DNA of 64,000 bases from Sphagnum magellanicum (lineage: Eukaryota > Streptophyta > Sphagnopsida > Sphagnales > Sphagnaceae). Shown in pieces: positions 7,281 to 64,000 of the stretch. Position 1 is the first letter of the stretch; the number at the start of each line of letters is the position of its first letter. The notes under the pieces are model-generated. The model was not told where the DNA came from and searched no databases. It saw only the letters and a list, made by a program, of their open reading frames with translations. The position numbers were made by a program, and so were the translations under genes. The stretch is taken from contig CM038907.1 of NCBI GenBank assembly GCA_021904315.1, forward strand, positions 23,877,223-23,941,222, given 5' to 3'.

Positions 7281-7640
7281 TATTGGAAATTGACAATGGA
7301 TTGATGAGAAAATATAAATGATAAAATCATTGATTTACAATGAGCTTTCCACCCAACTATAGGATCACATAGATGTTGTTATAAACATGTGATCCACCCT
7401 TGAACTTTGGCCTAATCTGAATAGGAGGTGAACACCCCCATGTACATGTTACCTACCTTAAAAGTGCATGTAGAGGCACGTGCACAAGGCCATCATTTCA
7501 TGCATTGAGATATTTCACACTGAATTTAACTAAAGATATTTAAGTAAACTTACTTAACATATTTCATAGTCCCAAAAATATGCACATGTAATACAAATAT
7601 CTCAAGTAATTATAACTTGGTAAGAAGTTGATATCCAACA
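7281..7640 (-). repeat. 3' LTR of the copia element
   Basis: This aligns along its length with 11591-11973. In plus orientation both copies share TTGACAATG near the left end and end in GTTGATATCCAACA, so the element strand begins with TGTTGGATATCAAC. The outer left end is slightly decayed (TATTGG where the other LTR has TGTCAA). I set the border by the TG/CA rule, the primer binding site of the partner and the flanking duplication. Confidence 0.85.
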
Positions 7641-11353: not shown

Positions 11354-11419
11354 CTACCATGTAAGAAAGTTATTGTCATTCAACTTCTCAATACTTTGAG
11401 CATCAAAAGTGGATGTCAT
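11354..11419 (-). pseudogene. Truncated copia gag start
   Basis: The minus strand from ATG at 11417-11419 reads MTSTFDAQSIEKLNDNNFLTW and then meets a stop. The segment EKLN-NNF-TW is typical of the N-terminus of copia gag. The remainder of gag, including the CCHC zinc knuckle, is absent. The next recognisable segment upstream of 11314 is already close to the protease. Most of gag has been deleted. Confidence 0.6.
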
Positions 11420-11578
11420 GATTTTGAGGAAAAGAATGCTAAAAATTAAAACATCTAGAGCTTTGAAACTTTTAACAAAATGCTAGAAAAAACACACATA
11501 CACACACACCCAATGTTTCAAAACTTTCAAAAACTCTAGAAAACAATTTCAATCACTTTTTCCCTCAAAAGTAACCAT

Positions 11579-11590
11579 GCTCTATTACCA
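11579..11590 (-). other. Primer binding site of the copia element
   Basis: On the minus strand the 12 bases next to the 5' LTR read TGGTAATAGAGC. This is close to TGGTATCAGAGC, the site complementary to initiator methionine tRNA used by many plant Ty1-copia elements. Its zero-base distance from the LTR supports the LTR border at 11591. Confidence 0.75.
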
Positions 11591-11973
11591 TGTCAAAAAC
11601 TTGACAATGAATTGATAAAAATATAGAGACGATAAAAACATTGATTTACAATGAACTCTCCACCCAACCTTAGGATGACATAGATGTTGTTTCAAACTCG
11701 TGATCCATTCTTGAGCTCTAACTTAATCTAAATAAAAAATGAACACTCCATGCAAATGTTACCTATCCTAGAATTGCATGCAAAAATATATGCACAAGGC
11801 CGTCAACTTGTGCATTGAGATATTTCACACTAAACTTAAACTAGAGATATTTAAGTAAACTTACATAACATATTTTATAGGGCCAAAAATATGTGCATGT
11901 AACACAAATATCTCTAGTAACTATAACTTGGTAAAAGTAACTTAAGTAAGTTATAAAAAGTTGATATCCAACA
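11591..11973 (-). repeat. 5' LTR of the copia element
   Basis: This is the partner of 7281-7640 and about 20 bp longer. One local gain is AGTAACTTAAGTAAGTTAT near 11936-11953, which the other LTR lacks. It ends next to CCACC, the likely right-hand target duplication. Confidence 0.85.
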
Positions 11974-21713: not shown

Positions 21714-22565
21714 GAGTTTAAAAGGACCTGAATTTGAGAAGTAGGGCTCGTACTGTCCCCTCTCTCTAGTCACTATTTTTTTCTGTAATTTCTTTTCGCC
21801 TTCTTCTTCTTCTTCTTCTGCGCCTCGCCTGACCTCGCCCGGCGCCTACGTCTCTCTCTCTCCAGCCTTCTGCACAGCAGTTTGCAAACGTCCGCGCTGC
21901 GTCCCTCCCGCGAGGCGAACGCTTGCACACTCGCTCGCAGCTTAGTGCTCCTGTAGTAGCGCTTCATCGTACACCTTCCTTCTGCTCGCAAAGCTCTTGT
22001 CTTTTCCACTTTTTCCTACTGTTTGCACCCTCACACCTCCTCCCCCGACTGAATCTCCAGCTCAACTCATCTCAAGTTGTGTTCTGCAGCTTTGGATTGG
22101 CTACTACAGAGCGGTTCCTTCTCGTTGCGTAGCTCAGAGGACAGGAGAATGCAAGGATCTGGGTTGCGGGTGCGGGAATTTTTTCGGGAAGTGGAGAAGA
22201 AGTGTTTGGCTTGATGGTTTTTTTTCCTTTTTCTACCCCCGCTGCGGAGCTTGTATACGACCTAAGGGTTTGGCTTGACAACTTTGCCGTGGCAGCTCGA
22301 TTGCGGAAACGAGAGAGTGGGATGGGAATAGATTGGGAAGGGATTGGTGGAACTCTTGTGTGAAAAGCTTGCTTGCACGGATCAAAGCTCTGCTCCCCGG
22401 ATGAGGTGAGAGAGACATGGCGTATCGAACAAGGAGAGAAAGCTTACCCTAAGAGACGAAGGCATCGGGACAGGAGAGAGAGAGGGAGAGGGAGAGAGAG
22501 AGGCGTACTTCATTGCAAATGGATGAGGTACAGTGGGTTGGAAGAAGAAGAAGCATCACCCGCTG
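21714..22565 (+). promoter_or_regulatory. Core promoter and long 5' leader of the O-fucosyltransferase gene
   Basis: A TATA-like GTTTAAAAGG lies at 21715-21724. About 25-35 bases further on, the sequence turns into a pyrimidine tract (CCCCTCTCTCT, 21757-21767) and then a GC-rich, CpG-containing leader with CT and CTT repeats. The leader is about 800 nt and contains upstream ATGs with short frames (for example 22147, 22214-22363 and 22519-22566). A leader intron cannot be excluded. Confidence 0.45.
22214..22363 (+). other. Upstream open reading frame, 49 codons
   Basis: An ATG at 22214 opens a 49-codon frame that ends in TGA at 22361-22363, fully upstream of the main start. If the leader is unspliced here, it could lower translation of the main frame. 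Nothing suggests that its peptide is conserved. Confidence 0.25.
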
Positions 22566-22566
22566 A
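22519..22566 (+). other. 15-codon uORF ending in TGATG over the main start
   Basis: An ATG at 22519 opens a 15-codon frame (MDEVQWVGRRRSITR). Its TGA (22564-22566) shares its last base with the main ATG (22566-22568), giving the sequence TGATG. A second ATG only four bases later (22523) is in a third frame and runs out of frame over the CDS to 22909. The arrangement suggests translation control by leaky scanning or reinitiation, if the transcript includes this part. Confidence 0.4.
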
Positions 22567-23016
22567 TGCAGAACAACAAGGATCACATGCATGTGTACGC
22601 ACGGCCATCAGGGTTGCTACAGAACGGCCATGGCGTCGCATCATCTCCACCAGGATCACCGTCTCCCCGCATCATCCGCAATGCCAGAAGCAGCACGGGT
22701 GGAGGAGGACACACACGGAGCGCCGCCAGGATGGTGCACACCGGCAGCGGAGCTCTTTCACAGGGCCCGCCGCGCACTTTCTTACAGAAGCTCACAATTT
22801 CATTGCTCACCTTCTTTCTGAGACGCCCTGGGGTTCTCCTCCTAGCGCCCTTCATTTATTTCACCGGTATGGTGTTGTACATCGGAGGCTCCTCCATGGA
22901 GCTTCCTAGGTTTCAACCTCGCCATATCCCCGGTTCCTACTACCGCAGCGACGAAGTTTTCAGGAATCTCTGGCCCGCCATGCAACGAGCCGATGTCTCT
23001 ACTGCACATGGGGTAG

Positions 23017-23054
<38 letters not shown>

Positions 23055-26000
23055 ATCTTTTTCCCCGTCTCCCATCTTCTTCTCACATTCAAGACATTCC
23101 AATTGCTTCCCTTACAAATGGCAACTCCAGGATTGCTAAAGGACCTGACTTTGACATCTTTCTGTCATGGTTTTCTCCTTCTCCTGTCTTCTTGTTGCAC
23201 TCAAGAAATTCCAATTGCTTCCCTTACAATTAGCAACTCTGGGATTGCTGAAGGACCTGAGCATGACATCTTTCTGTCTTCTTTTTCTCCTTCTTCTCCC
23301 AGTTTCTCCTCACATTCATGGAATTCTAGTTGCTTACCTTATGAACAGCAACTCTGGGATTGCTAAAGGACCTGAGCATGACATCTTTCTGTCATCTTTT
23401 TCTCCTTCTTCTCCCAGTTTCTCCTCACATTCATGCAATTCCAGTTGCTTACCTTACGAACAGCAATTCTGGGATTGCTAAAGAACCTGACTTTGTCCTT
23501 GTTCTCCCATCTTCTTGTCACACTCAATGAATTCCAATTGCTTATGTTACAAATAGCAACCCCAGGATTGCTAAAGGACTTGACTTTGACATCTTTCATG
23601 TCTATTGTGTTCTCTTTCAAGATGTGAAAGGCAAGGTTTTTACATGTACTAACTGCAATTTTTCTGTTGTGGATTGCACATTTGGAGAAGGGGGGGTGGG
23701 GGGGGTTTGTGTGCCCAGTGTTGATCATCAATGTTACCTTGATTATATATCTGATTTGCATTTTGGCTGCAAAACTTGCAACATCTTTTATGGAAAAATC
23801 TTTCTACCTTCATTTTTTTTCTGAGAGAGTGCATATCTGAAACCCTTTTGAAATTTTAGAGTTTTTTGTATAGGGGAAGTCCTCATCCTGAGGGACTCCA
23901 TGATATGAGGCCATGCTTGTGAGGGTGGTAGCCCAAGCAGGTGGTGCTGAATTCTCCAGGAAGTCAGAATCCCCTTCAGAAAAACTGTGGAATTTTTCTT
24001 GGAATTTGGAGCTTATGGCAAATCCCAGGGACCTTACAGGGCTCCCAAGGGTATAATGCAGAAGGCATGGGGGGCTCTGATTCTGCATCAGAACCCACCC
24101 TAGAAATACACTTGACAAAATTTCCATGGTTTTTACTTGTAATTGTGTAATCCACTGTATAATGTTGATCCCTTACTATTTTAAGTTCTTTTGTTTAGAA
24201 GCTTATTCAGGATTGTTGCAGATGGACTGTTGTTAGCTGTTGACTTACCATAGAAATGAAAGGCAGAGTTATCATGATGGTAGAGAAGGTTGGGAGAATG
24301 ATTTTTGGTGTTGTGTGTGTAGGCTGGATTTAGAGTGTTGAAAGAGGACTCAATGGGTCATGGACGACAGGTATTGGCAGCATGGGAGTATCCTAAGGAG
24401 GGTATGGGCTACAGGCCCTGCCTTCATGATCTACATCATGACTCCTTTGAAGGTGGTAGCATTTTTTGTCTCTTCTTGATCCATTGAGATTTTGTGTTCT
24501 AATAGTGCAAAGCAGATCAAGAAATGTGTTACATCATGGATACACTGCTTATTGTACAAGGGGTGGTTGTACAGTTGAATACAGAGGTTGAAATCCTGGA
24601 CACTGTATGACTGGAACATAATGTGGGGGTCTATGTGGGTGTTTGCAATGGTTCAGGTTTGCCTCTGTCCAATGGGTACATACTGGTAGAGGCAAATGGT
24701 GGCCTCAACCAGCAACGCTCCACGGTATATGTCCTTTTCATCCTATCTTGCATGCTTTAGAACATGTTAGACAGTGAGTGTGAAAGCACAAACTAATATT
24801 TTCTGAGGCTCATTTGTCATGATGGTTACTGTGTACAATTTCTCATATTCATATGTATCATGCTCATGCAGATTTGCAATGCGGTAGCTGTCGCAAAGCT
24901 GATGAATGCCACTCTCATTATTCCCCTCTTTCATTTTAACAGTGTATGGAAAGATCCAAGGTAGTGCTTTTTCCCTGGAGATAGCATGCCTTTTGTTGTG
25001 AGATGTCCTTAGAAGTTGCATCAAGACTTCTGCACCTGTTTTGATGAAAAGCCAAGCCAGACTTAAAGTAAAAAGTTGTGCATGAACACTCTCTAGGGCT
25101 GTGTTCTTGCACAGCTGCTTGCTTGGTTGTAATTGCTAAATCATGGTTGGTTCATCTTGGGTTTTCCAATAGTCAAGGGACATGTGTTTTGACTGCAAGC
25201 ATTTCAGAGCAGTCCTTAACCAGTAGAATGATTTTGTGCAGTGTTTTTGGGGATATATTTGATGAAGAGCATTTCATCAATTCATTGGCACAACAAGTCA
25301 GGATATTGAAGGAGCTACCCAAAGAAGTAATGTCAAGATTTGAGAACATCAGCATGATTCAAAGAGTGAAAGTGAAGGCATGGTCATTGCCTCGATTCTA
25401 CCTGGAGACAGCACTTCCATTACTCAAGCAGCATGGGTGTGTTACTGCTGTTTCTCTTGATCTGCTCATTAGTATTTTCCCATGTACTGTTCTCAAAATG
25501 TGACTGCACTTGTCATGACTTGTGCATTAAGTAGAAAAACCAGGGTTCACCATATTTTCTTAATAGTGTGGTGGACGTGCACATTACAAATAATGATGAT
25601 GTGGGCTTTGTTATGATGATGCATTTTGCAGAGTTGTTAGATTTACCCCATTTGCAAACCGGCTGGCATATGATGGAATACCAGGAGGGATCCAAAAATT
25701 ACGTTGTTTTGCAAACTTTGAGGCCCTTCGATTTGCACCACCCATTGCCACAATTGCGCAGTTGCTGGTGAAACGCATGGCAGCTAAAAGTGCAAGCACC
25801 AATGGCAATTATGTTGCCATCCATCTGCGTTATGAACAGGCAAGTTTAGCTGTACCTCATTTTGGTAGACTAATAGTGCGATGACTCCCAATTTTAGATC
25901 AATGAAACTCATTTGCCTTTTGGGTTTTACTTTATTTCATTTGTGAAGGAGTAATGCCAACTTTTATGCACCTTGATAATGTAATTCTCAAGAGTCAAGA

Positions 26001-31720: not shown

Positions 31721-33601
31721 CTATGACACTGAGACAACAAGCTCGTACCCTGCTCTTGGGCCTGAGTCTGACATGTTTAGGGAATCATCATGCTGATCAG
31801 AGAAATTGTACTTTTGCCCAATGGCACACAACAGTTGGTAGACTTCATACATGGAAGGTCGCTCCCTGGCAGCTGAGTTAACACATAACAATCCTACCTT
31901 CAATACCTGCTTCATCTCATCATCTGCACCTTTGCCGACCAATGTCCTCTCTATAGCATCTGTTATGCGGCCACTGGCAGAAAGCATCCCAACCCAGTCC
32001 ACCAAAAGGCCCTTGAAGCCAGTGTCCATCAACACATCAACAGGTTTTTGACCTGTAATCAACTCAAGCAAAACCACCCCAAAACTGTACACATCACCCC
32101 TTGTTGTGGCCATAAGTGTGCGCACATACTCTGGTGCCACATAACCCACATCCCCAAAGTTGCCATTGACAAAGGTGCTGATATGTGTGTCAGGTACAGT
32201 GTTCATAAGCCGTGCGAGCCCAAACTCTGTGATCTTTGGCTCAAACTCCTCGTCCAGTTGTATACTGCTTGCACTAATGTTGCGGTGAATGATGCGTGGA
32301 TTGCAGGTGTGGTGCAACCATGCAAGGCCCCTTGCTGCACCAATGGCAATCTTCAGACGAGTTGGCCAATCCAAAGTCACCTTCTCAAATGTCTCATGTA
32401 ATTGGTACTTTAGGCTCTCATTAGGCATATGTTTATACACCAGAAGACGCTCACTACCTGCCACACAGTAGCCCAGCAATGGAACCAAGTTTTGGTGCTT
32501 CAGCTGTCCAAGTGTGTCCATCTCTGTCCTGAATTGTCGCTCACTGTGAGCAGATGAACCATGCAACCGCTTGATTGCCAGAACCAAACCATCACGAAAT
32601 TCGGCTCTGTACATTGTGCCACTAGGGCTGGAGCCTATGCAAGCATCCTTGCTAAAATCATTTGTGGCCTCCATGAGATCTGCCAGCCTAATCCTCATCA
32701 AGGGCTGCTCAAACATTGCAACCCCAATCAACTTGGGTCCTCTAATGCGCTTGGCCCACTTGCTTTCATCCCGCAACATAGCTGCCTCTGCTTTGTTGGT
32801 TCTGTGTATGAGAAGCCAGAAGACCAGGGCTCCAATTGCCAGTACTGCAGATGCACTTCCTATTGAACTTCCGACAATAATACCTGCACTTGTCACTCTC
32901 TTTGCTGGTCGATTATCACATATCTTGCGCAGAGGTGGCCCACATAAGCTTGGATTGTCCTCGAAGCTGCTAGCATCAAAGCCTGGCAATTTCTCATTTT
33001 CTCGGTCCACAAAGGTACTTGGGATTGATCCTTCCAGAAGGTTACTTGACACATTGAACTTCTGAAGACGATCCAAAATCCCAATTTGTGCAGGTATTGT
33101 GCCTGACAGCTGATTGTTGTTCAGCATGATGTTATTCAAGAAAAAGCATCGTGCAAGATTGGGAGGGATGTTACCAGTGATATTGTTTCTCGAGACATCC
33201 AAGTCGACCAGATTAGGAACAACATCTGAGCACAGGCTCTGGGGAATAGGGCCTGTAAATCTGTTGTCCGATAAGTCCAGGCGTGTCAAGGCTTTACAGC
33301 TGCTTAAACCATCAGGGAAAGATCCTGTGAGTTGTGAACCTGCAAGCTGGATGAAGTACACAGGGGGTGCATTGTTGCCATAGCATGTCACTCCATGCCA
33401 GTCACAAATTGAAGCACTCGTGTTTTCATTCCAGCCTGCTAGAAGCCCTAAAGGATCCCCAACCGACTCCTTGAACTTCTGCAAACAAACCAGATCATCT
33501 GTGTCTGATACCACCATGGCCACTGTTTGCATCCACGCTAATCCCAGAAATAACCTCATGACCAAGCTGTAGTCAGTCACCATCAAAGCAGATCTTGCCA
33601 T
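31721..33601 (-). CDS. BIR-type leucine-rich-repeat receptor pseudokinase, 626 residues
   Basis: This is one uninterrupted frame, as usual for BAK1-interacting receptor-like kinases. It has a signal peptide (about 1-31) and an LRR N-cap (DDLVCLQKFKESVGDP, then W-GVTC). Four to five LRRs follow (LTRLDLSDNRFTGPIPQSL, LDVSRNNITGNIP, NNQLSGTIP, FNVSSNLLEGSIP), then a membrane segment (about 229-256). The kinase-like domain has the VAIK Lys (LAIKRL), but the glycine loop is IGSSPSGTMYRA, the catalytic loop reads HRN instead of HRD, and the metal-binding DFG reads EFG. The activation segment THISTFVNGNFGDVGYVAPEY is typical of BIR1-BIR3. In Arabidopsis these proteins bind BAK1/SERK co-receptors at the plasma membrane and restrain immune signalling. 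Loss of both catalytic Asp residues points to a scaffold-like role here. Alternative starts are Met7 and Met15. Confidence 0.92.
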   Translation of the reverse strand: MARSALMVTDYSLVMRLFLGLAWMQTVAMVVSDTDDLVCLQKFKESVGDPLGLLAGWNENTSASICDWHGVTCYGNNAPPVYFIQLAGSQLTGSFPDGLSSCKALTRLDLSDNRFTGPIPQSLCSDVVPNLVDLDVSRNNITGNIPPNLARCFFLNNIMLNNNQLSGTIPAQIGILDRLQKFNVSSNLLEGSIPSTFVDRENEKLPGFDASSFEDNPSLCGPPLRKICDNRPAKRVTSAGIIVGSSIGSASAVLAIGALVFWLLIHRTNKAEAAMLRDESKWAKRIRGPKLIGVAMFEQPLMRIRLADLMEATNDFSKDACIGSSPSGTMYRAEFRDGLVLAIKRLHGSSAHSERQFRTEMDTLGQLKHQNLVPLLGYCVAGSERLLVYKHMPNESLKYQLHETFEKVTLDWPTRLKIAIGAARGLAWLHHTCNPRIIHRNISASSIQLDEEFEPKITEFGLARLMNTVPDTHISTFVNGNFGDVGYVAPEYVRTLMATTRGDVYSFGVVLLELITGQKPVDVLMDTGFKGLLVDWVGMLSASGRITDAIERTLVGKGADDEMKQVLKVGLLCVNSAARERPSMYEVYQLLCAIGQKYNFSDQHDDSLNMSDSGPRAGYELVVSVS

Positions 33602-34885
33602 GGTGTCTTCAGTCTGGAAGCTTTTTTTCTGGCTGCAGTCTGCTCAATAGATGATGTATGTAGTTAGTTCACCGAAGCTGTGTGCAGCAGCAGGGCGCAA
33701 GCTATGCTGAATGACGACCCGTGCTACAATTACTTGTGTATCCAAGCAGCAGCTATTGATTCAAACCCTAGTTCTGGCTCACAGTTCCGAGCATCTGAAT
33801 TTTGCAACAAAAAATGTCTTCCAGCACCTGCAGCTGTGGAAGAAGACCACCCAACTTCAAAAATCTGCATTACAGTAAGTCAAGCTAGCAAGGTTCAACA
33901 GGAAAGAAACCCGGGAGCTGGAAACAACAGAAAAAGGTCGACAGGGATCACGAGCTCTACGACAGGCTCACACCAGCCTTCAGTAGCTCATACTACACGA
34001 GCTCGAGACTGTCCAAAGCCCTAGCTGTGTACACATACCTTATGCCACTGTGCTGTAAGTAGAGATCAGGTGGAAATCCCGCGGAGTCCTCCTACTAGCT
34101 GCTGCTGCTGCTGCCCCCGACCCAATGCCCCAAATGGGTAGAGCTCTAATGCAATGTAGCAGCTGATACACAGAAGGAAACACTAATCATCGACATCCGA
34201 AGCTGCAAGAACAAGAGTAGTCCCTCATTCCAACTTGCTCTTCAAGACACGGAGCAGCTAGCTAGCTAGCTAGCGACCGAAGTACAACAAGAGTTTGCTT
34301 GCAGAGGGAGAAGCAAGCAAACTTGCAAAAGATGAAGATCAATGGCGTAGCTGCTGTACTAGCGCAGCAGACTGGGAGAGTACTGACTGTGCTGCGACGA
34401 CGACGACAGAAACAACAACGACAACAACAAACAAGCCGTGTTCACGCCTCTTCCATCGGGATGCGGGATTGAAACAAGACAGACAACAGGACTCTCGTCA
34501 GGAGTCAGGACAGGAGGAAAAAAAAAAAGGTGGCAGGAAACACACCCACAGTCTCCAAGTCCCAGGTTCCTCAGACGCTCTCAGACATGACCCCACATGT
34601 CAGAACAGAACACAGGGACTAATTTCTTTCCCAATATCCCTTGACCCAACAAAAAAACAAACACACTGCGCGCGCGCGCACAGACACTCACTCTGTCTCT
34701 CTCTCCCTGGTGACTAGAGAGAGAGAGAGAGAGAAAGAGAGTGAGAGTCCCGAGTCAGGATTGACTGGAAAATTGAAATGCTTGAAAATGAAGTTGGGTG
34801 GACCTGATTTTCATCATTTGTTTGTCAGCTTCTGTGCTCCATTTTTCATTCCACTTGTGTAATAAATAGGGTAGTAATATATATA
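33602..34885 (-). promoter_or_regulatory. Putative promoter and leader of the receptor pseudokinase gene
   Basis: On the minus strand a TATATATA box lies at 34885-34878. About 130 bases further on there is a CT-repeat tract (GA on the plus strand, about 34717-34741), then a long GC-richer leader down to the start codon at 33601. The leader includes a (CTAG)n run at 34257-34275, CTG triplets near 34100 and an alternating CG run (34668-34679). The leader may contain an intron. Only the TATA and CT features are directly seen. Confidence 0.4.
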
Positions 34886-43171: not shown

Positions 43172-44259
43172 TGTCGCGCCCCCCCCTAGTTCCTTGTGGA
43201 CCCACTTGAGGGTCTAAGTATGCGGCGATGCGGAAGCGATTAGAACTTGGGGCACGATCCCGACTTCTAGCACTAGAAAGGGGTGAGAGGGGCGTGCTAG
43301 AAGCCCCGGGAATGACTAGGAAGAGTGGACAAGCTTGACTCATTCACACGGACCCTCCATGAACCACTCCAAGTGGTTAGTCCAAAGTTGGAGCACCTTT
43401 GGTGTTAGGAAGAGCCACGGCCCGGACCTTGGGGGAAACCATCACCTTCCCCTTTAGAACTCATCATGGAACCTTTTTGGTGTTGGGGCAAGCCACGGGT
43501 GAACTCGGACTCACTTTGAACACACACACACTCCGGGCTCGGGAGTAAGCCACCACCTCACTCCCTTGGTGGGGAAGCCAGCATCTTCCCCCCTTGGGGA
43601 AGCCAACCACTTCCCCCTTATAGTATACTATGTGCCTCGCCGCGGGGGTGGCATCCAAATGGCCATTTTGTCCCGGGACTCCCGGGACTCCCGCGTGAGA
43701 ATCCCGAAATCGCGCAAATTCGGGACTCCCGCGACTTTGAAGCTTCATAACTTTCGGAGCAGACCTTCGATCGATTTGCCGTCTGAAGCAAAGTTGTAGA
43801 TCTCGTCGAGACCTTTTCAACGGTATGTCGCACGTTCTCTGTAGTCAAGTATTTCGGGTCGATTCCCAACTTTTAGTGGTCGGGAGTCAAAACTGGCAGA
43901 CTCCCGAGAATTCGACTCCCGCCCCCTTCTTTTGGCCATAACTTGTGTTTCATATGTCCAAATGAGCAATGCGAGCCCATTTTGGACATCTACACTTCAA
44001 GACCTTTCCATTGATATAAAGAACGCAACAAGCCATGGAGTTTTGACCCCTCAAAACGCTCTCTGAATTCCGGGAGTCCCTTTGGGACTCCAACTCTCAC
44101 CAACTCCCAACATGGGAGTTCACTTGGGAGTGTGAGGGTTCACTCCCTCACACTCTTTGCACTCCCGGGAGCATGTGATATGACTCCCGGATCTACTTAT
44201 AGGCCCGCAACCTTGCAACCCCCTTGCCTTGGTCACGAGCCAAGGCTAGGGTTGCGACA
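43172..44259. mobile_element. Solo LTR, copy 1 (1088 bp)
   Basis: The segment starts TGTCGCGCCCC and ends GGGTTGCGACA, giving TG...CA ends with a TGTCGC/GCGACA terminal inverted repeat. It is flanked on both sides by GTGAC (43167-43171 and 44260-44264), a perfect 5-bp target duplication. It is GC-rich inside AT-rich DNA and carries no transposase-like frame. These are the marks of a solo LTR left after recombination between the two LTRs of a retrotransposon. TGTC-CGCCCC starts are often seen in plant Ty3-type LTRs, but the superfamily is not proven. The open frames inside (43464-43869) are not genes. Confidence 0.85.
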
Positions 44260-44457
44260 GTGACATTGGTGCGTTGGATATTTTTGAATTATGTGTTAAC
44301 TTATAATTGCACTGTTCATCATATGGAGATTATAAGATTTTCATTATTAGTTGATAATGATAAGTAGATTATGCCTTTATTGTGTTTTGATTTTCTTCAG
44401 TTATTTTAGTTGGGTGGATTGTTCCCACACTCTAGCTTTGGTAATTTCATAATTGTG

Positions 44458-44600
44458 ATTATAATCCAACTTTTTGTTTTGACTAGATTTTGACTATAAT
44501 CTATTTTTTGTTAACTAAGTTTTGATTTTTTATCAATTAAATTTGACTAAAATTCAACTTTTTGTCAACTAAATTTCAACTAATTATGCATGAGATAACT
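44458..44600 (+). repeat. Degenerate ~35-bp tandem repeat
   Basis: Three to four variants follow one another of the pattern GACTATAATC-AACTTTTTGT followed by -AACTAAATTTT. Example starts are near 44458, 44490, 44522 and 44551. This is an old tandem array in AT-rich DNA. Confidence 0.45.
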
Positions 44601-44869
44601 AGCATATTTGTAAACACCATATGGCAACAAATAATTCACCATGGTTTTGACTCATGACATTTTAATTTTGTCAATGAAAATAAAGATATTTTGACAAGTG
44701 TAAAGTCAACAATGGCTACCAATTTAAATTGAGTGTTGAGATTTTGCCACTTGTCATTTTATATCATAAATCTATCCAAAATTTTCAATATATATAATTT
44801 AGAAAACTCCTTATCATACACATGGCATGCATCAACTATTTTATTTTTATGGAAGCCCACTAATGCCTA

Positions 44870-44927
44870 ACTATTTAATCTAACTACCTAACCTAGCTAC
44901 CTATTCTATCTACCTACATGTGACCCA
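44870..44927 (-). repeat. CCTA-motif cluster (reverse strand of the TAGG clusters)
   Basis: Reads AACTACCTAACCTAGCTACC and TATTCTATCTACCTAC on the plus strand, which is the complement of the motif seen at 41.6 and 42.8 kb. The strand of the motif has switched relative to those clusters. Confidence 0.5.
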
Positions 44928-45285
44928 TTTCATTATTTTGAAACAATTGTAAATATAAGTCAAACCTTCAACTTCACTAAGATGGATGAAATGATAAGTT
45001 AGTGGATGAAGTCTATACTTTTGGTTAAATATAGTTTTAAATGGTTTTTTTGACTAAATTGATAAATGTTGACCATGAGTTGACACATGGTTGTTGTGTT
45101 CAACTATTTATTGCACTTGATTTTTTGTTATCAACTTTAAACCTTTACAATTGAAAAAAATCCAAAATTTTAATTTCAACTTGAAATTGCAATTTTTGAC
45201 TAAAATTATAGTTGAAACACATAGTTCCAAATTGGGGGGGGGGGGTTTCTCCTAATGTGATGTAAATCAAATCTATGTCCATTTC

Positions 45286-45332
45286 AATGTCACAAAGATA
45301 CCCTAGATATTATATGTTATCTTTGTGACATT
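45286..45332. repeat. Perfect 15-bp inverted repeat with 17-nt loop
   Basis: Arms 45286-45300 (AATGTCACAAAGATA) and 45318-45332 (TATCTTTGTGACATT) are exact reverse complements. It sits between the two solo LTRs, just after a homopolymer of about a dozen G (to 45245). No gene is nearby. Confidence 0.75.
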
Positions 45333-46067
45333 AGTGTTCACATTATAACCTTAAACTACAACAAGCCACTTTGTTATCAATTTGATCAATTATTGGCCCC
45401 TATATTCCATCAAAAACCCCAAAATCAATGTGATGAAGTTATTTGCAAAACCTTTACCAACCACCTTTTCAAGATTCAACAACAATGCCATTTTCTTAAA
45501 ACCATCAACAACATAAGTGTGCACACTACACTAAGATGATTGTTAATTGTTATAATTTCATCACAATTAACAACGAGGTACTTGATTATTGCACAACATC
45601 TTTGATTTGTTTAATGACAATTTGGAACATGGTCTCTACCATTTTCCAAGCAATGGATTAGACCAATGTTTATGCGACATGTTTTTTGCTTTCAAAAATT
45701 CAAAAATGTGTTTCATGTTCTCAAAGCTTGTCAAAGGTAAACCAAATTTCAAGAACCAAAAATGGCAGTGAAAAGAATGAACTTGTGTTTCTTATTTTTA
45801 ACAATTCTTGTGCTAACACAAACCAATTTAGCAACAATGTTTTGACCCCTAGTAGTCCATAGACACTCATTTTTCGCATGTTAGTTCTTTATTGACATGA
45901 AATATTGGCCCACAACAAAGTCAAGGAGTGCAACCTTACATTTTTGCTTGCATGTGTGTTTTTTTCAAAAGTCAAATTCAGGTACAAATATATTTTCTCT
46001 ACCCTTGATTTCACTACACACTTTGCAATGAACCATAATTGATTTTCCCATCACACTATACCATTAT

Positions 46068-46973
46068 TGTCGTAACCCTAATCTTGGGCTCACAACCAAG
46101 GCAAAGGGCTTGCAAGGGTGCGAGCTAAGACTAAGCCCAATAGTTGTATTATCATGTCCCCAGGAGTGCAAAAGAATGTGAGGGAAAAAACCCTCACACT
46201 CCCAAGTGAACTCCCATGTGGGAGTTGAAGTCTCGATGAACTCCCAGATGTTCAGAAAATGATTACAAGGGTCAAAACCCAATGGATCGAAGAGTTCTTC
46301 ATAACATTGGAAAGCTATTGAAACGTGGATGTTTAAAATGGGCTCGCATGACCCATTTGGACATCTGAAACACAAGTTATGGCCAAAAGAAGGGTTGGGA
46401 GTCAAATTGGTTCTCGACCACTAAAAGTTGGGAATCACCCCAATATCCTTGCGTGCAAGTGGCGTGCGACATACCATTGAAAAGATCTCAACGAGGGCTA
46501 CAATTTTGTTGTAGACCTCATCTCAATCGGAGGTCTGCACACAAAGTTATGGGGCCCCAAAATCGTGAGAGTCCCAACTTTGGCAATTTTAGGACTCCCA
46601 CTTGGGAGTCCCGGGACAAAAAGCCATTTGGATGTGAGCCTTGTGGAGAGGCATAGAGTATACTATAAGGGGGAAGGTGGTGACTTCCCCCAAGTCCGGG
46701 CTGTGGTGAGTCTTGTGAGTCCGAGCTGCCTGTGGTTTGTCTTAACACCAAAAGTGCTCTAACTATGCACTAACCACCTTGTGTTGGTTTTGTGCAGGTT
46801 CATGTGAGTAGTTGATGCTTGTCACTCTTCCTAGTCCCATCTCGGAGCTCCAACACGCTCCTCTACCCTTTTAAAGTGCTACAAACCAGGGAACGTGCCC
46901 TTACTCTTTGCTTTTCTGTTGTTTTCAATTTAGACTCACATTTGAATCCATTAAGGAGCTTGAGGGTGCGTCA
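46068..46973. mobile_element. Solo LTR, copy 2 (906 bp), inverted relative to copy 1
   Basis: This is the reverse complement of copy 1 over most of its length. It begins TGTCGTAACCCTA (matching the end of copy 1) and ends GAGGGTGCGTCA. Inside, GTATACTATAAGG at about 46659 matches the complement of 43617-43630. The flanks ATTAT (46063-46067) and ACTAT (46974-46978) agree at four of five bases, which fits an eroded target duplication. It is shorter and more diverged than copy 1, so it is probably older. Confidence 0.75.
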
Positions 46974-49900: not shown

Positions 49901-51230
49901 ATCCAATGACAAAATTCTTGTTGCATCTTTCGTCTAAAAGTTATTATTGTAAAGAGACAACAATCATTTCAACATGCTACCCCATTTTGTCAAAAATGGA
50001 TTTGATCGACACAAAACCTTAAATAGTCTCCCTTGACATTATTTTTGACCTCCATCACATGAACTATCAATTTGTTTTCACTCTACTTTGAGCTACATTA
50101 GCACTTAGCACCTCCTCAAACTAATACACAAGTTGTGAGAAACAAATTTGAGGTAGGGTTAGACACTTTTGCATTAAATAAATTTGTAGTGGAAAAAAAA
50201 CATTTCTCTCATGCATTCCATATGAAAGTTGCAAAGTTCAAACCTTCTTTCTAAACAAATATAGTTGTGAAACAAAATAATAGGAATTTCAATTGTTTGG
50301 AATCCAACCTCCAATATAATTTAGATCATGTATCATGAATTTTGGTAGCTTGTTAGCACTCTTTTTTTTCCTAAAGATGTTTTTAATCTTAGAATTCACA
50401 CATATGTAAGGATGTAAGGGCAATTTTGATTTCTTTCAATCCATCAATCCTTAGAAATTGCATTGTAATTGATGGATTCGTGTCAAATAATAAAGAAAAC
50501 TAAATCCTACAACACCAGCTCTTTGGCTTTTATGCTGTGGGTGTCATTAGTGCAACTGCCTTCTATTCTGGTGAACAGAAACCTTTGGTATTAAACCCTC
50601 AAAGAAGACATCTCCATACTGCCAAAGGTACCTTTAGAGAGATATATACCTTTGGAGATACATACCTTTGGAGTTCAACCTAATAGATTTGCTACCCACG
50701 TTGGAAAAACCAGCATTTAAGGCGTTGCAAAGATAGCCAAAGATGCATTCTTTCAGCTTGCAAAGCATGCTCAACTCCAGAGAACAAACAAAAATCAACA
50801 CCCAAAAACAAATCTGTTAAGAAGGTGATAACAAAGAGCTTCATCTGTTGTTGATGCCCTGCACCACACAGAAATCTGGATTTAAATTTGAGATGGCCTT
50901 AGAGAATTCGTTGTGAAGATAGAGATAGAGAAGGGCTCAATGGGGTCACTTCCATGTTTTCTCCAAATGGTGTGCAAAAGAGTATAGGGTGTAACTAATT
51001 CAATAGAAAATAGAATTTATAATTTACTCAAGCATTTTGGAGTGTTGGAAATGGAACACGTTTTGGTGTATTGAGAGTTGAAATATGGCAACAAAGCGTT
51101 TTCATGAGGTGGAATAGAGGAAGAAGTTGCGAGCATGCCAGCCATAATTTTGTTTTGTTTTGTGTGCCAACAAATTTTATGCAGTCATGTGCTGATCTCT
51201 CATCAATCATATGCGCTGATTTTGGTTTAT
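46979..51230. other. AT-rich intergenic DNA
   Basis: No gene is supported here. It contains short low-complexity runs (AATAATAAAT near 47250, a C-homopolymer near 47325) and a small repeated word, ATACCTTTGGAG, near 50647-50672. The last few hundred bases should include the 3' untranslated region of the minus-strand gene that ends at 51231. Confidence 0.5.
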
Positions 51231-54200
51231 TTAGGTGGGGAACGATGCAGATGTGAAAGTAGCAACAAAGCTTGGCAATCTGCTGATGGCAAAACAAAGC
51301 GAAATTGTCTGCACCAGCAGTTTGGAGCCGACTCGCCACACCTCCACCTCATGTTTGTAGGGTGGTTGTTGCGACGACTCCGCGGTTGTCGACTTGTTCT
51401 TCAAACTCTCCTCAAGCTTTTGCAGTCTCATTCTTAGAAAAGTCACCTTCACATCTGCAATTGCCTTCATCATCCTAATAACCTTAAGCTGATCCACAGC
51501 AACAATGTTGTTGTTCTCTGCAACCGCCGACGTTGTTTGTTTCCCCCTTGTAATGGACCTTGGGGGGGTGGTGGTATCCGCCATGTTCTGTACAACAATT
51601 TTGCTGCTGGGGGGTCTAGTGGGTGTCGTCGAAGGTTTCAACGGATTTGCGGCAGCGTCTGGCGGGGGAGATTTGATTTCGGACTCATCTTCTTCCCCAT
51701 AGTTGCAAATGCTGTCTTGTGCTGCTAATGCCTGCACTTTTTCATCGTATTTTCGTTTGGCTTCCAGTGCTGCCCAGCGCTTGAGCTGCTCGTCCAGTCG
51801 AGCCGGGAACTGCTGCAATTGCTGCGAGACTTCTTCAAGCTTGCGTGCTTGGTAGATGCAACTCTTGCTCAGCTCTTCAGCGCGCTTCTCTATCACGGAT
51901 TTCTCTTCGTCCTCTTGCACGAACGTCTCTTGCACTGTATTCAGTCGCAGTTTCAATTGTGGTGGTGGTGGTGGTGGTGATGAACCAGCAGCAGCAGCGT
52001 GTACAACACTAGTAGTACTGCGGGACTTCGTCTTAAACTCTGCTAAACCTCCTCCTCCTCTAATGCGAGGCACTGGGGCTGTTTCTGCCACTTCAACTCC
52101 TCGCATTATCATCGCAGTTGTTGCAAAAGAGGGGCGAGGAGTAGAAGATGTATTATTATGATTATTATTAGTTTGGCAGGCTTCCGATTTGGTGAAGAAG
52201 CGTCTCCAGCCCGTCATCGCCCCCCTCTGTTGTTGTTGTTGTTGTTGTTGAGATGCTCCTCCTCCACCAACAACACCACGACCACCAGGAGTACTGCCTC
52301 CACTCACCTGAATTGCTGCACAGCTTTTGCAGCTTTTTTCTGGAGGGACGTCAACGCTGTTTGCAACTGGACTCCCCCGCCCACCTGTTTGAGGAGGGGA
52401 GGGGCCGCATTTGGCATGAAGCAGGTCGCTGTAGATTGGAGAGGGAACACTTGAGTTTTGTGTTTCACATCCATTGGGACAACGTGCATGTTGTGCTGCA
52501 GCAACCGCTGCCATGATCTTTACCTCCTCACCATTTGTTTCACAAGCCAACGATTCTCTATGATGATGAGAATGCTGCTCCTCTTCCTCATCTCCAATTC
52601 TCAGGGACAAGATATCATCAGATAATGGGATGATCACTGCTGAAGCTTCTTCTTCAAGCTCATGATCCTTACAACAGTCATCAACAGAAGAAGGTGGAGA
52701 CGGAACCCTAATCTTTAGGGTTTGAAATTCAGGATCCTTGCCCTGAGGTGAGACAGAACCTGGTCTTTGAGAATCAATCTTGCCTTCCGTCTGTTGCATG
52801 AAATTAGCTGGCCACAGCCCAGCAGCAATTTCACCTTGTGAGTGACTCAAACCATCACCCTCTTCATCTTTTTGTGTTGCAGTAGTACTGGCACCTTCAT
52901 GGTTTAAGCCCTGAACACCAGCTTTGTCCTGAGCAGGACCTGGCCTGGGGTCACGAGGATATAATCTCTCTTTTTCAAGCTTTGGAAAAAACTGAGCTTC
53001 CTGCTCAAATTGAAATGCCTTTCCTACTGGCAGTTGAGAACAATCATCACTCTGACATGGGTCCCACGATTCTTGAGCTACATCAATCGCTCTTGATTGG
53101 TGAACCATCATGTCAGGCATGTATCCCAAGTCCTGTGTTATTATGCTCATGCTGGTTGGAAGTCCATTGCTAGCTGGAAAAGGGAACATCATTGAGTCAT
53201 CAATTATCTTCTTCATTGGAAGTAACCGAGAGAGAAATGAGGCCTCAGAAGCAAAGGACCTTGGTGAGCACCCTTTCTCCAGTTTCAATGGCTCTGAGCT
53301 TAGATTTTGAGGTGAAACACAGATGGAGTTGAGTTTACAAGAATTGGAATCTTTGAGAGAAACAGTTTCTGGAGTTTCTGCAGAGCTATTGGCAGCAGCA
53401 AAAGCTTTGTCAGAACCTGCTCTTGTTGGACAGGCAGCAGCATGATCACCCTGGGAAGATGCCGTTTTACTAATGGATGATGGTGATGGGGATTTCGATG
53501 GTGATTTGCATTGTGGGGAAGAAGGTGATCTAGATTCAAGTGGCTGACTGACAATACTTGTCAATGGGAGGGAGGCCACCAAATGACTTGTTTTAGCTGT
53601 GATCACTGTTGTCATTGGTTCTTTGTTTTCTGACCTAAATATCAGGCTACCCTTTCCCATTCCAATTTCCAAGGGCAAGCTAGCAGTAGTTCTCTCAGAC
53701 TCCTGATTAACCTTCACCAGGGATAGAGGTTGAGAGGAGCAAGTAGCCTCAATGGAAGAACTTTTATTTGTCCGCTGTGGATGTTCCCTCCTCTTGCTGG
53801 CCTTCTTCAAATGAGGAGCTTTCTTCGCTGGCAAATCAGATGTACTGGTGGCACTCTGGGAGTCAGTCATTTCAATGTCTTCAAGGTTGGCAACATGCTG
53901 AGTATGCTGCTGCCTTCTTTCAATGCCTTTCTTGATAACAAGATATCTCTCAGTTGACGACTCAGATATGCTCTCAGTTGGAAGGTCAGTCATTTCAGTG
54001 TCTTCACTGAGGCTGTCTTGAACATCCTTTGTGACCTGCACTTGCTGTTTTTGCTTAATTGCCTTCTTGGCCTGTGGAGATTTTTCAGTCACCAAATGGC
54101 ATACTCTCCTCCCACTTTGAGGGTCAGCCAATTCTGCATATTCAACCGCATTGTCATGAACCTTTTGTGATTCGCATTGTAAGCTAATTGATGGTTGCAA

Positions 54201-55935
54201 CTTATTGGCCACACCGCAAACTGGCAGATTGACAAATTCAGGGTGAGCTGAAAAGTGATCTGGATTGATCTGAATTTTTCTTAAGAGCTTGTTCTTCGTG
54301 CGGTATTCTCCAAGTTTCTTGAGGAAAAGATTTATCATGTTTGCGAGCTCTTTCACTTTCACTGCTTGGTATGAACACACCACTCCTAGATCCCTTGTTC
54401 GATTCTTTGTTGTCTCAATAATGTGGTTTGCAACTTTAACTCGTTGCTCAGCATTTTTTAGTCTGCTCTCCAGTCCCTTAGAGTTTCTCTCGGCAACATC
54501 TGCTCGTTGCTCTGTCGCTGTTCGACTCAATCTCTCTTCCAGAAGCACTTTCTGCACACGGTGCAGCCTCTTCTTCAAATCTCTTACTTGGAGACCATAT
54601 GCTCCAACCTGCTTGAAAGATTACCAAAATAGGGTTGCCAGAGATGTTGATGACAGATCTGGAGGGACTGTAAAATCAAAATGAAACAGCTAAATTAGTT
54701 AGTTTGAGCCCAAGAAAACCGAGTCAAAGTATGCATGGAAAAAAGTTTAACAGACCTGCTTTGTGAGCTCAGCTATTTTCCCCTTCTTTTGCTCTAGCTC
54801 CAACTTTGCCACATGAGGAACTTCAGTAGAGCATTCCTGAAGCAGAGGAGCTAGATCTGCATCTGCATCGAGGGCACCTTTCCTGCCCATTTTGGTAACC
54901 CTTCTCTTGAAGGAATTTGCACTTTCAAAACTAACTGCTGTCATTTGCAATCCCTCTGCAAGCCCAATTTTTTTGAAAATATCAATGATTTTGCACTAAC
55001 TTTTAGGTTCATGTTTGCATGCTCCATCAGTAACTGTATCTAGAACTGAGCAGCTTGCAAAAAATTCTACTTGAATATCCATCATGTTGTCTGTGCATTC
55101 AATAAGGCACCCAAATTGGTGTCATGTGATTTGAAACCCAGGGCTTGCATGGACCCAACATGGAAAACATTGTCTAGTCATTGAAAAGGTTAGCATGTAT
55201 TGTGGCAAGAAATGTCTCCACTGCTTTGTGTGTTGTTTACAATCTAACTAAAATCTAAGCCCTCCTACAAGTCCAAAACATTTTGGTAAACAAGCTATGT
55301 TTCAGATTGCAATGTTTGAAAGTTTGTAAACGAGTTCAAGGCGTAATTAGAGGGTTGCAGACTTCTCAACAACCCATTCTACCAATGTTTAATGTCAAAG
55401 AATCCTCAATGATGGGCACCTTGTTTCATGCTCATTGTAGATGTATCCACACAAAACTTCCTATCTGTTTCTCATTGGATAGCTATGCTGGATGTCAACT
55501 GAAACATGGGTGGAAGGGAAATCTAAAATCCTCACATGCATTGTACATCGATATCTGGAAGATAAAGCGCCTTTGAAACTCCTGCTTGTGAAGAAAGGTG
55601 ACTCAAAATCCAAAGACAAGTGAAAGAAACAGGGCACCCTCACCTTTTGTGAAGGGAGTGCACAAAGACCCAGTCCGGGTTGAGGGTGAGAGGAAGATTT
55701 CAGCCTGAAGTTTAATTGGCGCAGTAACTAAGCCAGCAGCAACTCCAGGTTCTGAGATGAACTGGCACTGAAGCTTCTCAGCCTGTGCCTTAACTGGTAA
55801 GTCAAGAAACATTTCATTGCCAGTTTCACCAGGTAGAATCAAGATCTCAGTCCTCACCTTGATTGGCACATTTATGAACTGTCGGTCATCCTTGGTTTTT
55901 GGCATAAACACTGAAAAGTGGCCTCGAGGTGACAT
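51231..55935 (-). CDS. Large charged coiled-coil protein of unknown family, 1289 residues
   Basis: Three exons on the minus strand: 55935-55644, 54955-54756 and 54608-51231. Introns are GT-AG (AAAAG|GTGAGG...TTGCAG|AGGG and AAGCAG|GTCTG...AGCAG|GTTG). The 3870-nt frame is open. Exon 1 holds three imperfect copies of a P-K-QAE motif (VPIKVRTEI, LPVKAQAEK, APIKLQAEI). Residues about 145-275 are highly charged with heptad-like spacing (LELEQKKGKIAELTKQ, then DLKKRLHRVQKVLLEERL), so a coiled coil is likely. Residues about 320-450 carry three acidic-basic repeats around A-LADPQS, TEMTDLPTES and IEMTDSQSAT. The middle is Ser/Pro-rich and disordered, with a Gly run and eight Gln near residue 950. 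A second helical segment follows near residues 1070-1130 (EKRAEELSKSCIYQARKLEE), with another near the C-terminus. No enzyme motif is seen. I do not know the family. A scaffold or chromosome-associated role would only be a guess. Confidence 0.8.
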
Positions 55936-59630: not shown

Positions 59631-62316
59631 TCAGGAAAAAGCTGAAGCTGATGATGTCTGAAATGTGCTTCCTAAGAAAACAATGACAATGGTAATATCA
59701 TCATGATATTTTCGTCTCCGGCCAATTGGAATGCTCCTCAGTTCATCCACTGTTAAGCCTGGCCCAAATGGACAGTCAAAAGATCAGAAAATACATCAGT
59801 GATTTATCTTGTCATGTAGATAAATAAAATCACTTGTATTACACAAGCTGGAACAAAAAGGGTAAATTTATAAGGGAAGGAAAGTTGCATGAACATACCT
59901 ACAACAAAGCAGAGTGAGGAAACAAAACCAGTGAGGTAAAATACACAAGTCTGGCACAAACAGGAATTTTTTTTAAAAAAAATCCTAAACCATAATTTAA
60001 TCATAGATTGAGAAATGTAGCTAATTAACATGATACCTGCATTATCAGCCACTCGGAGAAGGAGGTGGTCAATCATGAACTTGGCAGGATCACCAGCAGG
60101 ATGGTCACACAAAAACTGATGAATGTGATTGACAACCTCATCATTTGTGAAGAAATCAAACAGGCCATCACTCCCGATGATCACAAACTGATCATCAGGA
60201 TCCACCCGCAGCATATTAACGGATGGGTCAGCAGTCAGATATGGTGGACTGGTCAAATGTTGAACCCGCAAAATCCCCATCAGAGCATCGTTCATGTTTG
60301 CCTGCATCCACAGATGGTAAAAGAAAAATCACACTCACACTTTGAAACTGTTACTATTAAATGAACTATATGGCTTTAGTATCACCATTTGCAACAGTCT
60401 AACTGAGTGACTAATAACTGTAGCAGGCTTCACAGAGTGGGGAACCAAAAACCCTAAACCATGGAATGCGCACAGTTCCACTATTCATGTGGTAAATTCA
60501 ACAATGCAAAACAGACAGTAACCAAGTTCAGGTATCCATGAACCAAACTCACTTTTTTCAGATAGCCTGCACCAACAGCACGAGTGACTCGAAGCTTTCC
60601 TTTTAAACGTCCACTTGTTATTACAAACGGGTCGTCAGGATGTTCTCTCACCACCCGCTCTCTTTCAACAGCAACGTTTATCCCATGCAGCTCTGTTAAT
60701 TGCACTGCCATCAATGATGCCCCAGCAGCAGGTTGAGCTCCTGTGGGTTGATCCCGAGATTTGTGAGTGGCAAGTACGGCACGGCTGTCACCCAAGTTAA
60801 GTGTATACAAATTCTGGCCATATATTAGCACGACCAAAACACACGAACCAACCATGACAAGATCTGGTCGCTCGTCCATTTCATTCTCCACCATTTCCAG
60901 AAAATCATTCTCTGTTTGAAGCAGTGCATCCCGTAGCCCATCCAACACACCTTGTTGGAACTTACTCTCTAAACTTTTGCTCCCATCCTGTTCTTCCATT
61001 GACATAATCAATAACCACTGAACAATGTAAGACTTTGAGCAGCAGAGAGCACACTCCACCCTCATGTAAAGACCTGTCAGAATTTTCATAGGGGATTCAG
61101 ACAGCACCTTTCGAAAAAACATAATGTCACTGCCTAAAAGAGGGGCATCTCACGTTCCAGGGCAGGCTTTTACATTCTGTAAGGATCCACCTGTTTTCTT
61201 TAGGCAATGCTTAAAATCCTGGCTGTTAAATCAGGAAATAAAATTCTAACAGGTCTATACATGTGATACACCGCTCGGACAGAGGTGTTACCAGAATTTG
61301 ATTGGCTACCACCTTGGGCAGGCACCTTATTCTGGTAACTCCACCCATCCTTGGGTACTTACGTACCACTTTCCTCAGGTACAGAATTATTGAACATGAT
61401 GTGCATAACATGGGAGGGATATGTACAGTGCGGGGATGACAAAATTAGGGTTTTGGGTTTCTGGACAACTTACATTATCTATTCTATCTTCACCCTTTGT
61501 TTCCTCTTGATGAAGTCTCTGCTCCAAAGCACGTAAATGCAATCCAATATTCTCATACAGCATCCCAGCCAAAAAGTCAGCTGCATCACGTCCATTAAAT
61601 CCATCATAGACTCCACAAAAGAGCCAACCGTGTTCTTCTGAGCAGACAGCTTGCACACGGTCCTCACCAGCTGCACCGCCTGCCATCTGAACATCCCCAG
61701 CATTCAAAAAGCTTGTTGAATCCAGCGTACTGGTTGACCGGTAGAGGTGAGATTCCTCAGCCATCATCAAAGAGGGATATGATTGGTTCCTGATACTCAC
61801 GAGGGTGCTTAGTGTCGAAGAGATAGAAGAGTCTGTGTTTAAAGATGAGGTTCGCAAGATTGAACCCATGGGACGGAATGTCTTAGGTGAATCAAGACCT
61901 GGGAGAATCTCCACCCCAAAAATCCCATTACCGAGACTGGTGTTTGCTAGAGTTGCGTTTGCACCTATAGCTGCTCCAGATAAACAAGTAAATGACCCAT
62001 TTCTTCTGGGTTGCTTCCAAGGCTCACCCTTTAGGCTGACAGAGAGTGTCTCTTCAGACGATTCTCCAGTTGCACTTTCAAAGACTGAGATGGTTTCTTC
62101 AGGACTTACAGGCAGTCGATGTCCTGAAGAACTGCTACCTTGAAAGAGATAACCAAAATGGACACTCAACTCTTCATTTGTTTCTCCTTCTCTGTGAATC
62201 TCGATTGGTTCTGGAACAGTATTGTTGCTGCCTGTAATAGCAGTATCACCATCTTCATAAGATTGCAATTGATGCAGATCCTGGATCTGTTTTCGAGAAG
62301 AGATTCGAGCCCCCAT
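59631..62316 (-). CDS. POLTERGEIST-like PP2C protein phosphatase, 566 residues
   Basis: Four exons on the minus strand: 62316-61474, 61017-60553, 60301-60037 and 59758-59631. All introns are GT-AG, and the 1701-nt frame is open. The N-terminus MGARISSRK fits N-myristoylation (Gly2, Ser6), which plant POL/PLL phosphatases use to reach the plasma membrane. After a Ser/Thr-rich region comes the split PP2C domain: [23 protein letters not shown] (about 235-248, the clade's replacement for the usual DGHGG), [22 protein letters not shown] (about 356-364), [14 protein letters not shown] (about 423-436), [15 protein letters not shown] (about 477), and [13 protein letters not shown] near the end. The metal-binding Asp residues are present, so it is likely active. 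In Arabidopsis this clade acts in CLAVATA-related stem-cell signalling and as receptor-kinase partners. The start of exon 2 is set by phase and AG only. That short join is the weakest point. Confidence 0.92.
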
Positions 62317-64000
62317 TTCTATACCCTAAAAACTGCCTGCCTCTCTCTCTGGACTTTTGTACAGTAAAAAAAGGAGAACCCTAAGGATTTCAAAGACTGT
62401 GCACCCTAAGGTTTCTGAAGCTGATTGCAAAGTTTTACTACAGGTTACAAATACCTGGCAAGATACATGTCATCCTTGGTTTTCCAAGAGAAGAAACACT
62501 TCCAAGGTTTTGTAGACTTTATCTCTCTCTCACTTATGCTTCACTCCTACTCTTTACTATTGACATACATACATTGATTTCCAGACTATTGCAGGACAAC
62601 AATGGTATCATCGAAGCTGAAAACAAAGGCCCCAGAAACATCACTTCTGCATCCATACATGAAAAACATACTCCTGTTAGTCTCACCATCAAATTGTACC
62701 ACACTTGACAATCAAGGGTGCATAGCCAGATCTTTCACACTGGAAACATCATCATCGCCAGAATCCTATGCTGCAAAATGTACTATGGAATGGTACAGTG
62801 CCTGAAAAACTCAGTTCCTCGGTGGGTTTTTCTCAAAGAAAGAAAATCTGCTGAATGAGGTGTTCCTTGGCTTGATCAAGGTTGGGAAAATTCGCTTGAG
62901 GTCTGTCTGTGATTTACTTGCCCTCACAAACAGAAAAACCATGAATGCAGTGATACAAAGATCTAGAGTTACAAACCTCCAAACAAGCTCCACCTGTGAT
63001 CCTCAAACCAAAAGCCATTGGAAACTTCACCTCCCCCTTTGGAGCTTCGTCATTTGACCTCCATTTCTGCTGCTGCTCATGTGCCAGTTGCTGCTGCTCT
63101 CAAGCTCCCATCCAAACCCTGCAAATAAAAACGCCCTTCTTCTCTAAGTCCTTTCTCTCTTTCACTGCTCTTTTCGTTCCTTTCACCTCGTCTGAAAGAA
63201 AGACTGCAATTTTCCAATCACCGCAACTTCAGTGTCTTCGAGACCAGAGGAAAACTCTGGATTTTTTCTCATGCCCAAAAGACTTCGAAACCAAAAAGCA
63301 TGGGCTCTGAACTCGACTACAAACCCAACATTTTAGACCTAACTCACAAATTGAACTCTCTCTGTCTTTCTCAAGCAGTTTTGGAGAACACCAGTACATA
63401 AAACTTGAGAAAGATTTGGAATTTGCTGAAGATCCTGATTTCTCTCTCACCCTCTCTGAATCAAATTTTACCACAAGAAAGAGTCATCACGTCGATCATC
63501 CATCATCACCCACAAACCCAAGATCGCTGAATCAAGTACCCCCACAAGCCCGAATTCCGAACATGATTCCCCCCGCAAACCAAGGAGAAAATTTCAGTCC
63601 TAAAAATAAACCAAACACCCCACCCCCAAAAAAGACAGAAAAAAGGTTTCAACCACGTACCTACAAACTGGATTTTGTATCCCCCTAAACCGCCCCTCCC
63701 AGAAACTCCGATTTCAAGCCCTTCACTTCACCAAAGCCTTGAAAAACAAAACTGAACCAATTCTGCAAGCAATCCACAAAGAATAAATAAAATAAAACAC
63801 CTCACTTCTTCTTCTTCTTCTTCGCCTTCTTTCTTCTTTCTCTCAAGGCCTCAAGGCAAACAAATGACTACCAACCGGCATCCCTCAATCACGATAGACT
63901 GCTGACAAATTATTCCACACCCCAATCCTTGATCTTCTCAACTTGCTGCTCTCTGAGTTGTCATAAAGAAAAAACATAATACAAAATCCAATCAAATCTT
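62317..64000 (-). promoter_or_regulatory. Upstream region and probable leader of the phosphatase gene
   Basis: CT-rich stretches lie next to the start codon (62341-62350) and at 62522-62534 on the plus strand, and a CTT/TTC microsatellite lies at 63804-63823. Base composition is richer in C than the rest of the intergenic DNA, as in the leaders of the other genes here. The transcription start was not placed, and a leader intron is possible. The open frames at 62996-63688 show no domain and lack splice context. Confidence 0.35.

Follow-up and report, generated by a model that had tools for sequence, protein, structure and literature searches.

Extended coiled-coil proteins are defined by a coiled-coil domain of more than 250 residues, and the long coiled-coil clusters that are specific to Arabidopsis and rice are, in the accessible part of the survey, mostly of unknown function (PMC1322226). 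A second described system, the kinetochore protein KNL1, has in Arabidopsis a coiled coil together with an RWD domain; as far as the accessible part of the report goes, plant KNL1 is reported to lack a conserved MELT motif, so that a search for this motif is a weak test in plants (PMC12526889). Here we analyze a locus of the peat moss Sphagnum magellanicum, situated in a stretch of 64,000 nucleotides (the window), which might encode a protein with some likeness to both. We give about an even chance to the reading that the locus is a moss protein-coding gene, single-copy save for one decayed relic, whose product would be a mostly disordered coiled-coil scaffold; this reading is based on the sequence and on structure models.

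Gene structure and coding evidence

The gene model is composed of three exons of 292, 200 and 3378 nt, which join in frame to 1289 codons and a stop codon (Table 1). All splice junctions follow the GT-AG rule, with the donors AAAG/GTGAGG and CAG/GTCTGT and the acceptors TTGCAG and AAGCAG. Between positions 50401 and 51420 there is a single AATAAA, the first base of which is the last base of the TAA stop codon.

Table 1. Positions of the gene, its repeats and its predicted structural features in the window
Feature	Position	Strand	Remarks
Exon 1	55644..55935	-	ATG at 55935; residues 1-97 and one base of codon 98; contains triple P-[IV]-K repeat
Intron 1	54956..55643	-	688 nt, GT-AG
Exon 2	54756..54955	-	residues 98-164
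Intron 2	54609..54755	-	147 nt, GT-AG, phase 0
Exon 3	51231..54608	-	residues 165-1289 and TAA stop
Three P-[IV]-K-x-[QR]-x-E units	55699..55866	-	residues 24-30, 47-53, 73-79
Three degenerate acidic/basic units	53769..54146	-	residues 319-444; 0 of 500 shuffles match self-alignment score
N-terminal basic long helix (predicted), exon 3 part	54294..54608	-	residues 165-269; heptad z 2.6-4.5 in six windows; AlphaFold helix
Ser/Pro-rich stretch	53241..53750	-	residues 451-620, 31% S+P; pLDDT <50
C-terminal helix (predicted)	51717..51935	-	residues 1056-1128; block pLDDT mostly 61-75
C-terminal helical pair (predicted)	51252..51506	-	residues 1199-1240 and 1247-1283; block pLDDT 42-62

Exon 3 lies within a stop-free run of 1129 codons, whereas the longest run in 200 simulations of the same region (order-2 Markov model with the region's own trinucleotide statistics) was 296 codons. 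The long, open and coding-like frame which the preliminary description had put forward is confirmed. When the codon score is trained on the receptor kinase and PP2C genes nearby, exons 1, 2 and 3 are all positive in frame (0.137, 0.23 and 0.20 per codon), and the score of exon 1 is matched or exceeded by 1.6% of 5000 intergenic windows. The true frame of exon 1 is, however, outscored by its +1 frame (0.232) and by one reverse frame (0.294), and a reverse frame of exon 3 scores about as high as the true one (0.206), so that composition alone cannot settle the frame. Among the minus-strand frames of at least 30 codons between 49000 and 59800, exon 3 ranks first, exon 1 second and exon 2 fourth, the scoring table including exon 3 itself; the third-ranked one overlaps exon 3 but is read in a different frame. 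Antisense to exon 3, on the plus strand, there are three frames that outscore exon 1 (39.1, 30.3 and 27.7 versus 27.5). Judged from the sequence, the three-exon frame is probably a real protein-coding gene, with the C-terminal end, that is the last 50 residues or so, being its least certain portion.

Two of the neighbouring genes could be assigned. On the minus strand at 59804-62325 there is a PP2C gene in pieces, presumably resembling the POLTERGEIST group, with the PP2C domain of Pfam matched in two of the three frames scanned. An LRR receptor kinase is encoded by a single minus-strand frame at 31721-33643; among the plant LRR kinases its kinase part is closest to PDB 4l68, which we take to be BIR2. 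The window also contains a degenerate LTR retroelement (7287-11935) with flanking repeats 78-89% identical and 4.31 kb apart and with copia-like frames, recognized by eye, in between. An imperfect palindrome of about 3 kb at 43596-46690, with arms that are 76-79% complementary in three blocks, is possibly a foldback element. Finally, units of about 115 bp form a tandem array at 23053-23620, into which a 279-codon open frame (22527-23366) runs.

A decayed copy on contig 16

The genome searched comprises 438,994,042 bases in 31 contigs, the window being part of contig 1. Among the best candidates, which were scored, the exon 3 protein finds at E<=1e-3 only itself and one place on contig 16, where a relic matches the exon 3 frame with 49% identity over 60 residues (E 8.1e-6) and two stops. 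For the C-terminal 285 residues the best match besides the gene itself, again among the best candidates scored, has an E value of 0.48. The N-terminal 300 residues recover the three exons, the contig 16 relic (E 4.4e-6), a second piece of the relic and a weak match at another place (E 9.5). This second piece derives from exon 1 (80% identical, E 0.33 when taken alone) and lies where expected, about 0.8 kb upstream of the other piece and on its strand.

At the DNA level the pieces of the relic, whose identity is inflated since they were chosen as local matches, share with the gene 56 of 60 aligned bases for the first part of exon 1 (55902-55843), 223 of 316 for intron 1 and 140 of 179 for the end of the coil in exon 3; their order is kept, with gaps between them. 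The relic has no DNA match to exon 2 or to the greater part of the coil. Conservation is significantly higher in the exon 1 piece than in the intron piece (Fisher p 8e-5), and the difference between the exon 3 piece and the intron piece is not significant (p 0.07). Because exon 1, intron 1 and the coil end are represented by collinear pieces, exon 1 is tied to exon 3 independently of the choice of splice sites. The decayed partial copy shows that the gene, or at least a part of it, was once duplicated and then lost.

In the surroundings of the relic we noted by eye a frame resembling histone H2A about 2.4 kb upstream (3504-3968 of the extracted contig 16 locus) and a copia-like frame about 1.8 kb beyond the relic. 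In addition, an 85 bp stretch 3' of the gene (50944-51028 of the window) is 72% identical to a site just upstream of the relic (5882-5962 of the extracted locus), although out of order.

Retroelement-like remains are found elsewhere in the window and, by eye, near the relic, and one could suppose that the open frame is derived from a transposon or is non-coding. We consider this very improbable, since the genome searches show no repeats of the gene at E<=1e-3 beyond the one relic and no transposon domain of Pfam was matched. The best reading of the searches is rather that the gene is single-copy in its genome except for one decayed, truncated relic.

Internal repeats, helices and linker

The protein contains two sets of internal repeats. 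For the N-terminal triple repeat P-[IV]-K-x-[QR]-x-E the preliminary description holds: when exon 1 was shuffled 100,000 times, two or more copies never occurred, the motif having been defined on these same data. The self-alignment score of exon 1 is 38, which is reached by 1 of 500 shuffles, and that of the acidic/basic region is 61, whereas none of 500 shuffles exceeds 50; the split step of the scan was coarser for the shuffles (3 or 4) than for the real sequence (1), so that the latter has a slight advantage. The three acidic-then-basic units, proposed to be 41-46 residues apart, lie at about residues 322 (AELAD), 368 (TEMTD) and 409 (IEMTD), so that the spacing of 46 and 41 stands, but the EMTD motif is present in the last two units only.

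At codon positions 1, 2 and 3 the exon 1 units show 17, 10 and 23 differences out of 39, and the acidic/basic units A and C show 17, 12 and 22 out of 39. These units differ most at the third and least at the second position, which suggests constraint at the level of the protein; an exception with the opposite trend is the acidic piece, 11 codons long, of units B and C (3, 5 and 2 of 11).

The N-terminal repeats depend on the choice of the exon 1 donor. With a simple consensus score the donors at 55858 and 55644 tie at 26.0, the exon 2 donor reaches 24.5 together with three others, and the highest-scoring donor of the region (52308, score 27) lies inside exon 3. The N-terminal 97 residues could therefore be mis-modelled, with exon 1 stopping at 55858 (AAG/GTGAGG) and joining GCAGAG/GGA at 54953, or with translation starting in exon 2, in which case the last two of the three P-[IV]-K units would belong to the intron. 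This joint, derived by hand, stays in frame (78+198 nt) and gives 1217 aa, and the conservation of the relic ends at 55843. We nevertheless regard such a shortened N-terminus as rather unlikely, as the frame stays open through 55644 with three similar units that show the codon-position pattern given above. The relic does not discriminate between the two donors, because its next aligned piece begins at 55520 and the remainder of exon 1 is missing there. It is likely, as far as the sequence allows us to say, that the N-terminal repeats belong to the protein and that exon 3 is uninterrupted.

The charged coiled coil of the preliminary description could be confirmed in part. With an in-house heptad score (not MultiCoil) strong periodicity is seen in six proline-free windows of 28 residues, but all of these lie within residues 148-238, so that the signal begins in exon 2 and does not extend over the whole N-terminal helix. 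AlphaFold predicts a helix at residues 166-269 (2-105 of the exon 3 model), with block pLDDT values of 65-87 in the first 70 residues and 44-67 thereafter. Overall the model consists of this helix and of helices within residues 1056-1283, with low confidence between; it was calculated from a single sequence (mean pLDDT 39.8, pTM 0.29), and low pLDDT is thus no proof of disorder. The exon 1 model is uninformative (pLDDT 33.1). The Ser/Pro-rich middle is as proposed, composition and low pLDDT agreeing with a disordered stretch, although the charge-hydropathy rule disagrees here. According to this rule residues 165-280, 319-450, 621-800 and 1040-1195 are disordered and residues 451-620 and 801-1040 are not, in partial disagreement with the picture of helices and linker. 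The whole protein contains 23 SP/TP sites compared with a shuffle mean of 15.2; in a motif scan CDK sites, D-boxes and other short motifs were not clearly above shuffles. As to the second helical region, AlphaFold does predict helices with moderate to low pLDDT, but a strong heptad pattern is missing (top z 2.4, residues 1065-1092).

No known domain had been recognized at the outset, and an AlphaFold-based fold search had been suggested. Our searches agree with this: no Pfam family was above the curated cut-off for the exon 3 frame, the N-terminal 277 aa, the C-terminal 268 aa or exon 1 (the best E value, 0.029 for a C-terminal piece, being below cut-off), no PDB sequence matched below E 0.07, and viral contigs and GTDB genomes gave no significant match. 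Foldseek against PDB, with the single-sequence, low-confidence AlphaFold model as query, gave none at E<=0.001. Pfam covers coiled-coil and disordered proteins poorly, and it is quite possible, if somewhat short of an even chance, that the same gene is the diverged orthologue of a coiled-coil protein already described in land plants, e.g., a cytoskeletal, nuclear-matrix or meiotic scaffold. Consistent with this, most of the Arabidopsis- and rice-specific clusters of long coiled-coil proteins have no assigned function in the accessible part of the survey (PMC1322226). The Pfam and PDB results speak against such an orthologue, both being weak tests for plant coiled-coil proteins.

Possible role and comparison with known proteins

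The protein is probably an ordinary scaffold. The basic, heptad-bearing N-terminal helix would self-associate as a coiled coil, and the short units in tandem, N-terminal P-[IV]-K and acidic/basic after the coil, might contact a partner weakly and repeatedly. A second partner could be docked by the two or three C-terminal helices, with the long, low-confidence and partly Ser/Pro-rich linker joining the two helical ends and its Ser/Pro sites permitting control by phosphorylation. Given the basic patches, a nuclear or cytoskeletal location is plausible. We hold it to be unlikely, and put it forward as a tentative proposal, that the protein is a scaffold specific to peat mosses or mosses in which short tandem binding units, expanded independently into two sets, flank the coiled coil, left as a single copy after the duplicate decayed. 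If the gene were moss-specific and expressed, it would be a further candidate for cell structure confined to one lineage, in a moss of ecological importance. If not, it is one of the ordinary coiled-coil genes that lack a characterisation. The observation itself is sound, the gene is probably real and could not be named, and nothing marks a new kind of system.

The acidic Met-Thr units led us to consider a kinetochore hub of the KNL1 kind, in which disordered repeats are read by a checkpoint protein and a coiled coil is present. The likeness is superficial and consists of the long linker, the short acidic Met-Thr repeats adjoining the coiled coil and the coiled coil itself. The MELT motif of animal and yeast KNL1, M-[DE]-[ILMVF]-[ST], has no match in the protein, and RWD was found neither among the Pfam matches nor, with the single-sequence, low-confidence model, by Foldseek at E<=0.001. 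In Arabidopsis KNL1 the coiled coil and the RWD domain sit at the C-terminal end, whereas the coil of the moss protein is N-terminal. A hub of this kind is very unlikely in our view, and KNL1 was set aside as there is no match to MELT and, within the Pfam and low-confidence Foldseek searches just given, none to the RWD domain that is described with the coiled coil in the accessible part of the report on Arabidopsis KNL1 (PMC12526889).

From the plant long coiled-coil proteins the moss protein, as we read it, differs in extent: its strong heptads cover about 90 residues (148-238 by our own score) and its predicted helix in exon 3 ends at residue 269, compared with a coiled coil of more than 250 residues, and most of the chain is a low-confidence linker. 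With these proteins, including PICC and PICL, which are likened by description, as far as the accessible parts of the sources go, it shares that it is a plant protein with a coiled coil and without an enzymatic domain (PMC1322226; PMC3581476).
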